A stretch of DNA of 64,000 nucleotides from Cerasicoccus arenae (GTDB taxonomy: Bacteria > Verrucomicrobiota > Verrucomicrobiia > Opitutales > Cerasicoccaceae), in contig NZ_BMXG01000004.1 in assembly GCF_014651635.1 (NCBI RefSeq), positions 62,001 through 126,000 on the forward strand. The letters are read 5' to 3'. Under the pieces are notes generated by a model. It saw nothing but the letters and a program-made list of their open reading frames with translations, ran no database searches and was not told the origin of the DNA. The position numbers and the translations under genes are program-made. Below, piece by piece: positions 33,139-35,964 of the stretch. Numbering within the stretch: position 1 is the first letter of the stretch; every line of letters starts with the position of its first letter.

Positions 33139-33525
33139 TTAGTCGTAGCGGGCCTTGAGGGCTTTCAGTCCCTGGGTTTTGTGGTAATCCAATTTGGCAG
33201 AAAAAACGGAAAAACGTTGGAATTTACCAATTCGCAACTCAGTTTCGGCCTGCCTTGCATAGGCTGCGGCACGTGCCAAGCCCAAGTTGCCCAAACTACC
33301 TTTGACATAGTGCACGAGCGAAATGAGAACCTCGGTATTTTCTTGCTGGCAGGCGAGGTCGATTTTGACGACTTGCTCGGCATAGCTATGTTCAAAGGTG
33401 TTCATGAGCTCATCTATGAAGTGGGGCATCATGGCTGATCCCACGGATGCTTCCCAGTGCTGTAGATAGTTTTCGTCCAATATTTGAACACATCTCGGTG
33501 AAGCGAATTCGTCGGAGTCAGGCAT
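33139..33525 (-). CDS. Histidine phosphotransfer (Hpt) domain protein
   Basis: 128 aa, one Hpt helical bundle. The phosphoacceptor motif HYVKGSLGNLG places His72 and Lys75. Relays phosphate between a hybrid kinase and a receiver. It overlaps the receiver gene by 8 nt and is the last gene of the SpoIIE-fusion operon. No histidine kinase is encoded in this operon, so the phosphate source must be elsewhere. Confidence 0.88.
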   Translation of the reverse strand: MPDSDEFASPRCVQILDENYLQHWEASVGSAMMPHFIDELMNTFEHSYAEQVVKIDLACQQENTEVLISLVHYVKGSLGNLGLARAAAYARQAETELRIGKFQRFSVFSAKLDYHKTQGLKALKARYD

Positions 33526-33889
33526 GCCGTTTCAGAAGTTCATTAACAGCCGATTGCAGGAGACTGGGTGCAAATGGCTTGGTAAATACGCGGTCGGCAC
33601 CCGCGTCGAGCAGTCGCTGGTGCACCTGATGCTCGCCATGTCCAGTAACGACGATTAGCGGCATATTGGCTAGGTCTGGATCTGCACGGATACTTTCAAT
33701 TAGGTCAAACCCTGACTTTCCAGGTAGCATGACATCGATGATGGCGAGGTCTGGGCGTTCTACTTTTACGAGGTGCTCGGCACCAAGACCTTCACGGCAA
33801 ATAATGAGCCTACAGTCAAATCGTTTGAGGTTGAACTCAAGCAGCCGAATCATCAGCGGATCATCGTCAGCAATTAATATCGTGCTCAT
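33518..33889 (-). CDS. Single-domain response regulator (CheY-like)
   Basis: 123 aa receiver only. Acidic pocket IADDDP, phosphoacceptor Asp52 in LAIIDVMLPGKSGFD, Thr in VVTGHG and Lys in FTKPFAP. It has no output domain. The start overlaps the phosphatase-fusion stop by 4 nt (ATGA), and the end overlaps the Hpt gene, so the three are translationally coupled. It probably links a phosphorelay to the partner-switching protein. Confidence 0.92.
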   Translation of the reverse strand: MSTILIADDDPLMIRLLEFNLKRFDCRLIICREGLGAEHLVKVERPDLAIIDVMLPGKSGFDLIESIRADPDLANMPLIVVTGHGEHQVHQRLLDAGADRVFTKPFAPSLLQSAVNELLKRHA

Positions 33890-35565
33890 AATTTTTGCCA
33901 GTAGAGAAAGGTTTGATCGTCATTGGCGGGAACATGGGCACCGTCGATTTCTTTTCTCAATAGCTTCCAAATCGTTTCAGGAGATTCTTTTTGGAGTGGC
34001 ATTAGAAATTCAGTGAAATTCTTCCACCCCCATATCTCGCCATCGCGCGCCCATTCAAATAGGCCATCAGTGACCATTAATACACGTGCTGGACCGCTGA
34101 GAGAAAAACGTTCGGCGGAGTATTCTGAATCTTTAAAGAGCCCGAGCGGCGGGCCCGAAGGTTCGACGCTGAAATGCTCGCCTTCGCCTATGCAACCTAG
34201 CACTGGGCAGTGGCCAGCATTGACTATTTCGATTTTTCGAAGGTTTTTGGGAACGCGTGCAATGGCACATGTAGCAAACATGGTCATGTCTTCGAGTTCT
34301 CGGCAAAGCGTGCGGTTGAGCGCCATCATGAGACCGACAAGCGAATACTGGAAGGTCACGCTAATGTGTAGCGCGGTACGAAACATTGCGGCCAGAAACG
34401 CGGCGGGGACGCCTTTACCCATGACGTCGATCATGCAAAAGATAATGTCGCCTCCTCGTGTTTCGCAGATTTCAACATGGTCGCCAGAAACTTCCTGAGC
34501 AGAACGCCGTCGGACAAACGCGCTCCAACCTTCTCCAGAGGTGAAACTGGGCAGGGGGAGGAGCTTATCCTGCATTTCGGAGGCAATCTCGAGCTCACGG
34601 AGAGCTTTGTTTTCGCGATCACGGATTTGGGCGTTGCTGGCGTTCATTACAGCGATGCCAATCAAATCCGCGAAGGTGCGCACCGTGTGGCGAACTGCGG
34701 CATTCAATTCCATTTTGGCGTTGTGATTCGCTAGCATTAGTGCGCCACAGACTCGGCCTGCGGCGATCACTGGGCAGATAATGCCGCTGCGGAAATTGTC
34801 CAGATTCGGATCATCGGCTCGTCCTGTTTCTGTCCAGCTGTATTCTTCCTCTTGTTCCATGACGAACTGTATTCGGAGCGAATCAGCAGGAACAGCAAAG
34901 GCGACATGAGACAGGGCAAGCTCAGCGAGTAAGGCTGATTGAATGACTTCGCCAAGGTAGATGCGGCAGAAGTTATGCGGGGCTACGCCTTGAATATCCG
35001 CCACGGCCTGCTTGAGGAAGTCTACCACTGTCTCGCTTTCTACGAGTGCCTCGCCGAGTCGATAGAACGCCGCGAGGCTCTCGTAGCAGGTGGACAGTTC
35101 TGTCATCGCTTTATCCATGAGGGCCTCGGATGAGTGGGCCTCGTTCATGTCGTCATGGCGACGTGTGATCTTACAGCAGTAGCCTGTGCTGGACTGCCAG
35201 TGTTCAAAGCGGTCGACTAACTTATGTACAATGTAGAGGCCGCGGCCATGTGTGGCAGTCTCGGAAGGCAGTCTGGGTTCTCGAATAACTTCTTTGGGCG
35301 GGCCATTGCCAGGATCGATCACACTCAGGCTGATTTCCCGTTCAAATGATTCCCACGAGACTGAGATCAGCGTTTTGGCGTTTTCTTGGCAGCCATGGGT
35401 GACTGCATTGGCGAAGATCTCGGTGAGGGCGAGTTGCCAATCATTGATTTCCATGGGGGGGAGGCCCATATCCGCCAGAAATAGGCTGAAGTGTTCGCGC
35501 AGCGCATTGACTTCCCCCAATCGAGCGGGCACTAAATACCGTTGTCCGGACAATGCGCCAATCAT
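33886..35565 (-). CDS. Fusion of anti-sigma-type kinase, GAF domain and SpoIIE/RsbU phosphatase
   Basis: 559 aa. Residues about 15-130 are a GHKL/RsbW-like ATPase: ALTEIFANAVTHGC (N box), DPGNGPP (G1) and THGRGLYIVHKL (G2). A GAF-like sensor spans about 150-320, a short coiled coil (NKALRELEIASEMQDKLLP) follows, and the rest is a PP2C/SpoIIE phosphatase with VSGDHVEI, DVMGKGVPAAF, MFATCAIARV, NAGHCPVLG, VTDGLFE and NDDQTF metal-binding aspartates. One chain thus holds both the kinase and the phosphatase of a partner switch. The likely target is the divergent STAS protein at 35653. Confidence 0.9.
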   Translation of the reverse strand: MIGALSGQRYLVPARLGEVNALREHFSLFLADMGLPPMEINDWQLALTEIFANAVTHGCQENAKTLISVSWESFEREISLSVIDPGNGPPKEVIREPRLPSETATHGRGLYIVHKLVDRFEHWQSSTGYCCKITRRHDDMNEAHSSEALMDKAMTELSTCYESLAAFYRLGEALVESETVVDFLKQAVADIQGVAPHNFCRIYLGEVIQSALLAELALSHVAFAVPADSLRIQFVMEQEEEYSWTETGRADDPNLDNFRSGIICPVIAAGRVCGALMLANHNAKMELNAAVRHTVRTFADLIGIAVMNASNAQIRDRENKALRELEIASEMQDKLLPLPSFTSGEGWSAFVRRRSAQEVSGDHVEICETRGGDIIFCMIDVMGKGVPAAFLAAMFRTALHISVTFQYSLVGLMMALNRTLCRELEDMTMFATCAIARVPKNLRKIEIVNAGHCPVLGCIGEGEHFSVEPSGPPLGLFKDSEYSAERFSLSGPARVLMVTDGLFEWARDGEIWGWKNFTEFLMPLQKESPETIWKLLRKEIDGAHVPANDDQTFLYWQKL

Positions 35566-35652
35566 TACATCAGGATAAAGGAAGCTACCGCGTTGTCGAA
35601 AGCGAATTTTGCTTTTCGTTACGTCAGTTGCCGCTAAGGTGTTATTCAGCCC

Positions 35653-35964
35653 ATGAAGCTATTTGACCACTTGATTCAAGAAAAGGCCCAGCTCGAGGTG
35701 AAAGTGCTGGTCAGTCGCCTTGATGCGAGCGTATGCGAAGAATTTAAGCGCTACATTGATTCTTTGTGGGCAGAGAATTTGCAACAAATCACGTTGGATA
35801 TGTCTTCTGTGCACTTCATTGACAGTAGCGGCGTTGGCGCATTGATTGGTATTCAGAAGCGCTGGGGCCGTGGCACAATCATGCTACGCGGAGTGACTAG
35901 CCATGTCCGTAGTGTAATCGAGCTACTGCGGTTACAGCGTGAATTTACGCTGCTTGACGAGTAA
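35653..35964 (+). CDS. STAS-domain anti-sigma factor antagonist
   Basis: 103 aa, one STAS domain. The phosphorylation loop HFIDSSGVGALIG carries Ser58 and Ser59. Such proteins bind an anti-sigma factor when unphosphorylated. It is transcribed away from the kinase-phosphatase fusion, with 87 nt between the start codons, so both can share a regulatory region. Convergent with the glutaredoxin-like gene. Confidence 0.92.
   Translation: MKLFDHLIQEKAQLEVKVLVSRLDASVCEEFKRYIDSLWAENLQQITLDMSSVHFIDSSGVGALIGIQKRWGRGTIMLRGVTSHVRSVIELLRLQREFTLLDE

Follow-up and report, generated by a model that had tools for sequence, protein, structure and literature searches.

Introduction

SypE of Vibrio fischeri carries an N-terminal kinase, a central receiver and a C-terminal phosphatase, and acts on Ser56 of the STAS protein SypA (PMC10120452, PMC4517449). 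In the relevant passages of four papers from 2015 to 2024, the target of SypA or of similar stand-alone STAS proteins is described as unknown (PMC4517449, PMC8256260, PMC10120452, PMC11112999). Here we analyze a module of related design from Cerasicoccus arenae (Verrucomicrobiota), located in a 64,000-nucleotide stretch of contig NZ_BMXG01000004.1 (hereafter the window), in which a fused serine kinase/phosphatase, a receiver, a histidine phosphotransfer (Hpt) protein and a STAS protein are encoded together. Similar to SypE, which has the RscS/SypF phosphorelay as its input, the window protein combines an N-terminal serine kinase and a C-terminal PP2C domain on one chain, and a small STAS protein with a DSSG motif and a serine predicted to be phosphorylatable is encoded at the locus. 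An apparent phosphorelay input is also shared, as is a polysaccharide locus in most of the sampled relatives (marker in 61 of 80). Unlike SypE, however, the protein of 559 amino acids (aa) has no Response_reg match within it; its middle is GAF-like, the receiver (123 aa) is separate and the Hpt protein stands alone. In contrast to syp, the window copy lies outside any polysaccharide locus. The syp locus is not known to contain a WecG glycosyltransferase bearing STAS domains (WecG-STAS).

The HptB-HsbR-HsbA system of Pseudomonas aeruginosa clusters STAS, receiver, PP2C and kinase, with a stand-alone Hpt protein fed by unlinked hybrid kinases; HsbR carries receiver, PP2C and kinase/anti-sigma domains on one chain, and the outputs are FlgM/FliA, RpoS and HsbD (PMC6482189, PMC5085249). 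The window resembles this system, and CrsR-CrsA of Shewanella, in bringing the same functions together with a stand-alone Hpt. It differs from HsbR in that the receiver is split off, a GAF domain is added, and the kinase comes first (kinase-GAF-PP2C); the genome, moreover, yielded no FlgM match.

PP2C is fused to sensor domains in Rv1364c of Mycobacterium tuberculosis, where PAS and PP2C are followed by anti-sigma and STAS domains, and in OsaC of Streptomyces, where GAF and PAS precede PP2C (PMC12143880). The window enzyme is alike in this respect, whereas Rv1364c and OsaC are tied to sigma control. OsaC also has a kinase domain, and we know of no Hpt/receiver module that accompanies either protein. 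In Nostoc, HmpU, HmpV and HmpW form the partner switch of a motility-and-polysaccharide locus whose STAS target is given as unknown, and one sentence of the same paper mentions Anabaena all4160, a glycosyltransferase with an N-terminal STAS domain (PMC8256260). The Hmp proteins are separate, unlike the fused enzyme, and the WecG-STAS proteins of the window's relatives differ from all4160 in having two C-terminal STAS domains. Measured against the RsbU/RsbV/RsbW type of switch, the kinase, PP2C and STAS motifs of the window appear intact, and other parts of the genome encode sigma factors.

The coupling of a phosphorelay to a single-chain kinase/phosphatase whose substrate is a STAS protein is thus already known, and because SypE/SypA and HptB-HsbR-HsbA share this principle, the window module is not new in kind. 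The original prediction, made from the DNA letters, described a relay merged with a partner switch on an unusual one-chain enzyme; the architecture holds, and its unusualness was overstated in light of SypE, HsbR/HptB/HsbA and Rv1364c. What looks new, within the titles and abstract openings of the literature searched, is the split-receiver layout with a GAF domain instead, its distribution among polysaccharide loci of Verrucomicrobiota and the WecG that bears STAS domains. We consider it probable that the module is a phosphorelay-gated partner switch whose effector, across the family, is most likely polysaccharide synthesis with WecG-STAS as the leading candidate, and that the window copy represents a detached, Hpt-bearing branch.

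Results and Discussion

Layout of the module and its enzyme

The four-gene set was confirmed in the window, with its open reading frames (ORFs) where the original prediction had placed them (Table 1). As computed from ORF coordinates, the kinase-phosphatase and receiver genes overlap by 4 nucleotides (nt) and the receiver and Hpt genes by 8 nt, and the start codons of the STAS and fused genes are 87 nt apart. The predicted run of fused, receiver and Hpt genes, the divergent STAS gene and the assignment of Ser58/59 within its D57-S58-S59 motif all agree with these data.

The proposal that an RsbW-like kinase, a GAF domain and SpoIIE share one chain was supported by Pfam and by a structural model. 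HATPase_c_2 and SpoIIE were both matched in 34 of 34 family members. GAF falls below threshold in the window protein (GAF_3, 20.9 bits against a cut-off of 27), and PF01590 GAF was matched at E<=0.001 in 18 of the 34. Kinase residues E49, N53, D84 and G107-R108-G109 and PP2C residues D362, D380, D500, D549 and D550 are invariant in all 34 aligned rows. An AlphaFold prediction of the 559-aa protein (34 sequences) gave a mean predicted local distance difference test (pLDDT) of 86.8 and a predicted template modelling score (pTM) of 0.48, which indicates well-modelled domains and a domain packing that is not well modelled. The predicted order is kinase, helix 146-176, GAF-like domain, helix 289-335 and PP2C. 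Coiled-coil linkers between sensor and PP2C have been proposed as a means of control in this phosphatase family (PMC12143880). The Foldseek matches listed included SiaA/RssB-type PP2C domains, the PP2C domain of Rv1364c and SpoIIAB (TM by target 0.82-0.86 for the SiaA/RssB-type domains and SpoIIAB), and Rv1364c was also the best PDB sequence match. No GAF entry was among the 50 Foldseek matches listed, and the GAF assignment was not confirmed by fold. In one genome (G008, L039:7301-9030), two genes with a 4-nt overlap, one for a 205-aa kinase part and one for a 371-aa GAF-PP2C part, take the place of the fused gene, which is either a natural fission or a sequence error.

Table 1. The proposed switch module of C. 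arenae and its domains, in window coordinates
Feature	Position	Strand	Basis
Fused serine kinase - GAF-like - SpoIIE/PP2C phosphatase ('KGP'), 559 aa	33886..35565	-	Pfam, AlphaFold model, Foldseek, same-genus matches
HATPase_c_2 (RsbW/SpoIIAB-like) kinase domain, residues 12-128	35182..35532	-	Pfam E 2.2e-21; SpoIIAB 1l0o/1th8 structural matches
GAF-like sensor domain, residues ~195-308, boundaries estimated	34642..34983	-	Sub-threshold GAF, family GAF matches, predicted secondary structure
SpoIIE/PP2C serine phosphatase domain, residues 371-554	33904..34455	-	Pfam E 3.2e-34; SiaA, RssB and Rv1364c PP2C structural matches
Single-domain receiver (response regulator), 123 aa, D52 presumed acceptor	33518..33889	-	Pfam E 8.7e-24
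Stand-alone Hpt phosphotransfer protein, 128 aa, H72	33139..33525	-	Pfam E 1.3e-7
Single-domain STAS protein, 103 aa, motif D57-S58-S59-G	35653..35964	+	Pfam E 2.5e-13
Intergenic region, 87 bp, between divergent STAS and kinase-phosphatase genes; presumed promoter region (role inferred)	35566..35652	.	Length computed

Receiver, Hpt and STAS partners

Residues D9, D10, D52, T82 and K104 of the receiver are invariant in 14 of 14 aligned rows and H72 of the Hpt protein in 12 of 12. Of the genome's five Hpt matches, four lie in frames of 814-970 aa and only that of the window Hpt in a short one; the window Hpt is therefore well placed to act, like HptB, as a relay from unlinked hybrid kinases. The STAS protein weakly matched the solved structures of TM1442 and SpoIIAA.

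The second acceptor serine gives way to N, E, D or H in 10 of the 71 STAS proteins that were aligned (DSNG, DSEG, DSDG and DSHG in 4, 3, 2 and 1 proteins, respectively). In nine cases (loci L112, L113, L115, L120, L121, L128, L129, L132 and L157), two STAS genes stand in tandem upstream of the fused gene and the altered protein comes from the second; the tenth (L118) is single, and the first STAS of the pair reads DSAG in L112, L121 and L128. Judging by its motif, the replaced form is a possible non-phosphorylatable or phospho-mimic partner.

Conservation of the gene set

The close group comprised 14 loci (L026-L039) from 13 genomes. In 13 of the 14, the fused gene comes with stand-alone STAS and receiver genes, and in 11 with Hpt as well; a profile search placed a twelfth Hpt 6.5 kb away, in L084, which covers the same DNA as L033. 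L036 is the exception: its fused gene runs to the contig edge and its sole STAS match lies within a glycosyltransferase ORF. This gene (L036:5770-8415, equivalent to L087:3448-6093) is an 881-aa ORF with group-1 glycosyltransferase, WecG and two STAS domains. The closest named relatives of the fused protein are those of Cerasicoccus frondis and C. maritimus (73% and 72% identical), a third same-genus genome (G002) also has the locus, and identities to the matches in the three same-genus genomes are 73, 72 and 72%.

The genes flanking the module in the window (IleS, DksA, LspA, glutaredoxin and MYG1) recur in only 2 of the 14 close loci, both same-genus. Since the gene set recurs in the genus, the family and beyond with different flanking genes, the arrangement is beyond chance and represents a real module; an artefact or chance run of ORFs was rejected on the same grounds, and the search of other genomes that the original prediction had called for found the set conserved. 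Two sets of neighbours were considered as module members and rejected: the MYG1-like and glutaredoxin-like genes, which lie beside the module in only those two loci, and a 457-aa radical-SAM/UPF0004 gene beside the C. frondis Hpt. The latter type of gene is present in 5 of 9 compared stand-alone loci, but its two relatives in the window genome are on contigs C26 and C14. A shared-neighbour search of these nine loci recovered the module itself and smaller sets, two of which were scanned (an ABC transporter and a permease), and no effector stood out.

For the wider family we used the best 80 of 202 relatives from a genome-contig scan with two PP2C peptide patterns, a sample in which distant relatives and other phyla are under-represented and some genomes contribute two loci. 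Seventy-nine of the 80 named loci are titled Verrucomicrobiota or a subgroup, and the remaining one 'uncultured bacterium'. In 64 of the 80 (66 with longer ORFs) the fused gene has a receiver gene no more than 200 bp away, and 62 contain a stand-alone STAS gene.

Polysaccharide genes around the relatives

The polysaccharide markers (sugar transferase, phosphodiesterase and WecG-STAS) were small models from one to four seed sequences of these loci, with thresholds that we set. At least one was present in the 61 of 80 named loci given above, and in 35 of 44 among loci of at least 20 kb. The same markers were found in 0 of 20 control stretches around ordinary GAF-SpoIIE proteins, where STAS and Hpt were likewise absent; these controls (10-19.5 kb, from 20 genomes of the same order, not all with the fused gene) appear to be a single orthologous group, so they do not count as independent. 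Pfam analysis of proteins from L102, L098, L086 and L112 identified an initiating sugar transferase (PF02397), a hexapeptide-repeat protein, group-1 glycosyltransferases, a polysaccharide-synthesis/MatE-type protein and WecG. In L086 the order is STAS gene, sugar transferase, hexapeptide protein, fused gene and receiver, with Hpt 2 kb further on.

C. frondis, C. maritimus and G002 each have a second fused copy in an exopolysaccharide (EPS) locus with histidine kinases just upstream, Pfam-checked in C. frondis only. There, the genes immediately before the fused one code for a hybrid kinase of PAS-HisKA-HATPase-receiver layout and for a receiver-HisKA-HATPase protein. Two other proteins of these neighbourhoods were recorded. 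One, of about 360 aa (X362, L102:6551-7639), recurs in 23 of the 80 loci, and its L102 form matched neither Pfam nor NCBIfam at E<=0.001. The other is a DHH-CBS-DHHA2 protein in the EPS-type second-copy locus of C. frondis (L098:13212-14810), which from its domain content we take to be pyrophosphatase-like.

These neighbourhoods bear on the nature of the output. It had been pointed out that no sigma or anti-sigma factor is present and that the output is unclear. No sigma gene adjoins the module among the window ORFs, which were inspected by eye, and this part of the claim stands. The absence may be no gap after all, because most of the sampled relatives lie with polysaccharide genes, some beside a STAS-bearing glycosyltransferase; the window copy itself lies outside any locus of this kind. 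For the family, an output other than a sigma factor is the better starting assumption. Another candidate is a c-di-GMP enzyme controlled by the STAS protein, in the way that phosphorylated HsbA binds the diguanylate cyclase HsbD. The parts list is the same as that of hsbA/hsbR/hptB, and a STAS-cyclase interaction has been published (PMC6482189, PMC5085249), but none of 27 Pfam-scanned neighbour proteins of the relatives had a GGDEF match, a domain for which the window genome was not searched. We regard this explanation as very unlikely.

WecG glycosyltransferases with STAS domains

The loci contain 23 WecG-domain ORFs, of which 21 have STAS matches (one gene appears twice, so 20 genes), and a WecG with C-terminal STAS is present in 19 of the 80 named loci. 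In Pfam terms, a WecG/TagA/CpsF domain precedes two STAS domains. The L102 protein was modelled with a mean pLDDT of 83.1, and its model matched TagA/TarA structures and, in its other part, STAS. Twenty of the 23 ORFs were aligned (two short ones and one duplicate omitted; two of the 23 have no STAS match). By hand count, the acceptor-serine position of the first STAS domain is S or T in 16 of the 20 aligned proteins, and the second STAS reads DSRA in 8 of 20 and is otherwise variable. In six loci (L112, L118, L121, L128, L148 and L149), the WecG-STAS gene comes immediately after the receiver gene.

Of 193 sampled genomes from the phylum, 11 have the full-length fused enzyme, 24 have a WecG reaching STAS and 5 have both, against 1.4 expected (p 0.005, uncorrected for kinship). 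These counts are by our own judgment of the ranges matched at E<=1e-60, full-length meaning a start at or before model position 14 of 568 and reaching STAS an end at or beyond position 369 of 494; 4 of the 24 WecG-STAS matches (G063, G097, G099 and G130) contain stop codons, and G097 is among the five genomes with both. In each of the five, a single contig carries the genes for the fused enzyme and WecG-STAS, separated by 0.8 to 31 kb. No description of WecG or TagA/CpsF with STAS, or of STAS and a glycosyltransferase in partner switching, was found in the titles and abstract openings of the literature searched.

Position of the window copy

A quick maximum-likelihood tree, midpoint-rooted, was built from 84 sequences (4 of 88, under 500 residues, were omitted). 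Its labels are EPS (60), solo (13), solo with Hpt (10) and EPS with Hpt (1), some 'solo' labels coming from short contigs. The smallest well-supported set with the window has 4 rows, all solo with Hpt. The next has 10 rows (8 solo with Hpt, 1 EPS with Hpt and 1 solo) and the third 14 (10 solo with Hpt, 2 solo, 1 EPS and 1 EPS with Hpt). Other branches in this half of the tree are EPS except for one row. L086, with both polysaccharide genes and Hpt, groups with the window branch, and in the metagenome-assembled genome OFTM360 a solo and an EPS-labelled copy are sisters (L085 and L087). The simplest reading, with its polarity taken from the midpoint root, is that the window branch left a polysaccharide locus and gained a nearby Hpt gene. 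Same-genus stand-alone copies have no polysaccharide marker beside them.

The window genome is a 4.13-Mb draft of 63 contigs, 97.6% complete. It has 13 PF04542 sigma matches, 11 of them over the cut-off, including a 343-aa protein that reads as RpoD/RpoS-type and a 262-aa one that reads as FliA-like. These would be available to a classical sigma-factor switch on one chain, in which the kinase domain is the anti-sigma factor, as CrsR is for RpoS, and the unphosphorylated STAS protein frees sigma. CrsR and HsbR interact with RpoS (PMC6482189), so a separate anti-sigma gene would be unneeded. Set against this are the missing sigma gene beside the module and the polysaccharide genes around most of the sampled relatives, and we consider a sigma-factor switch unlikely as an explanation of the module. 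The HsbA-FlgM route in particular is improbable, and FlgM was set aside as a STAS target, since FlgM (PF04316) had no match at E<=0.1 in the window genome, a draft of the completeness given above. For the window copy by itself, a sigma factor or another effector is possible.

Two further loci of this genome were recorded. On contig C8 (L171:5886-7556), a 403-aa receiver-PP2C protein is followed by a separate 139-aa HATPase_c_2 kinase, forming a second, split partner-switch pair that is the mirror image of the window layout. On contig C3 (L166:6606-10194), the gene for a CheA-like 936-aa protein (two Hpt, HATPase, CheW and receiver) overlaps that of a WecG glycosyltransferase without STAS.

Several observations weigh against a phosphorelay-gated switch of polysaccharide synthesis. 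Among the 80 named loci, 14 have no receiver within 200 bp, ten of these belonging to one Opitutaceae/Pelagicoccus branch (L087 and one of the ten, L150, run to the edge of their contigs); a short Hpt gene lies within 3 kb in just 6; and 19 have no polysaccharide marker, 9 of them being at least 20 kb long. Nineteen of the 24 WecG-STAS genomes have no full-length fused enzyme at the cut-off used, and the two proteins are therefore associated rather than obligate partners. In the window genome, no WecG-STAS was found (two clear WecG proteins are without STAS), there is no second fused copy at E<=1e-10, and the sugar-transferase genes are on other contigs, the nearest WecG match lying about 51 kb off and outside the window. 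For these reasons, the polysaccharide link of the window is by kinship only. Two other genomes with stand-alone fused copies, G005 and G007, likewise have no WecG-STAS match.

Part of this evidence would fit a different explanation, namely that Hpt and receiver are co-located with the kinase/phosphatase without being wired to it, and that the GAF domain alone governs the enzyme. The 14 relatives without a close receiver, ten of them in one branch, and a nearby Hpt gene seen only in the window's branch speak for it. On the other hand, the genes overlap by 4 and 8 nt in the window, the receiver is within 200 bp in 64 of 80 relatives, the acceptor Asp and His are conserved, and histidine kinases are encoded beside the second copy of C. 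frondis. We find independent partners highly doubtful.

Proposed mechanism

From the genes and conserved residues described above, we infer the phosphotransfer steps, direction and effector of the phosphorelay-gated switch as follows. Hybrid histidine kinases encoded elsewhere would place phosphate on H72 of Hpt, which would pass it to D52 of the single-domain receiver. The receiver, together with whatever the GAF-like domain senses, would then set the balance of kinase and PP2C action on the STAS protein (S59 or S58), which in one phosphorylation state would bind the effector and so give the output. By analogy with SypE and HsbR, the unphosphorylated receiver may leave the enzyme a kinase and the phosphorylated form may favor the phosphatase, a direction that is a guess. 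Across the family, the effector would most likely be a component of polysaccharide (envelope or matrix) synthesis rather than a sigma factor, as has been proposed for SypA; of the possible effectors, polysaccharide assembly has the best support there.

Conclusions

A more specific proposal, which we put forward tentatively and as rather less than probable, is that a SypE-like switch in Verrucomicrobiota governs polysaccharide synthesis at the post-translational level. The kinase/phosphatase would set the phosphorylation of a free STAS protein and possibly that of the STAS domains of WecG/TagA, with STAS-STAS contacts turning the glycosyltransferase on or off. The window module would then be a relocated and rewired copy with a dedicated Hpt. 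If this is true, partner switching would exert its control on a biosynthetic enzyme itself, and SypA-type STAS proteins would have a glycosyltransferase as their target. The STAS-bearing WecG is a candidate answer to the question of what SypA-type STAS proteins act on, and one that is testable in named cultured strains, e.g. Cerasicoccus frondis and Luteolibacter pohnpeiensis, the source of locus L102.

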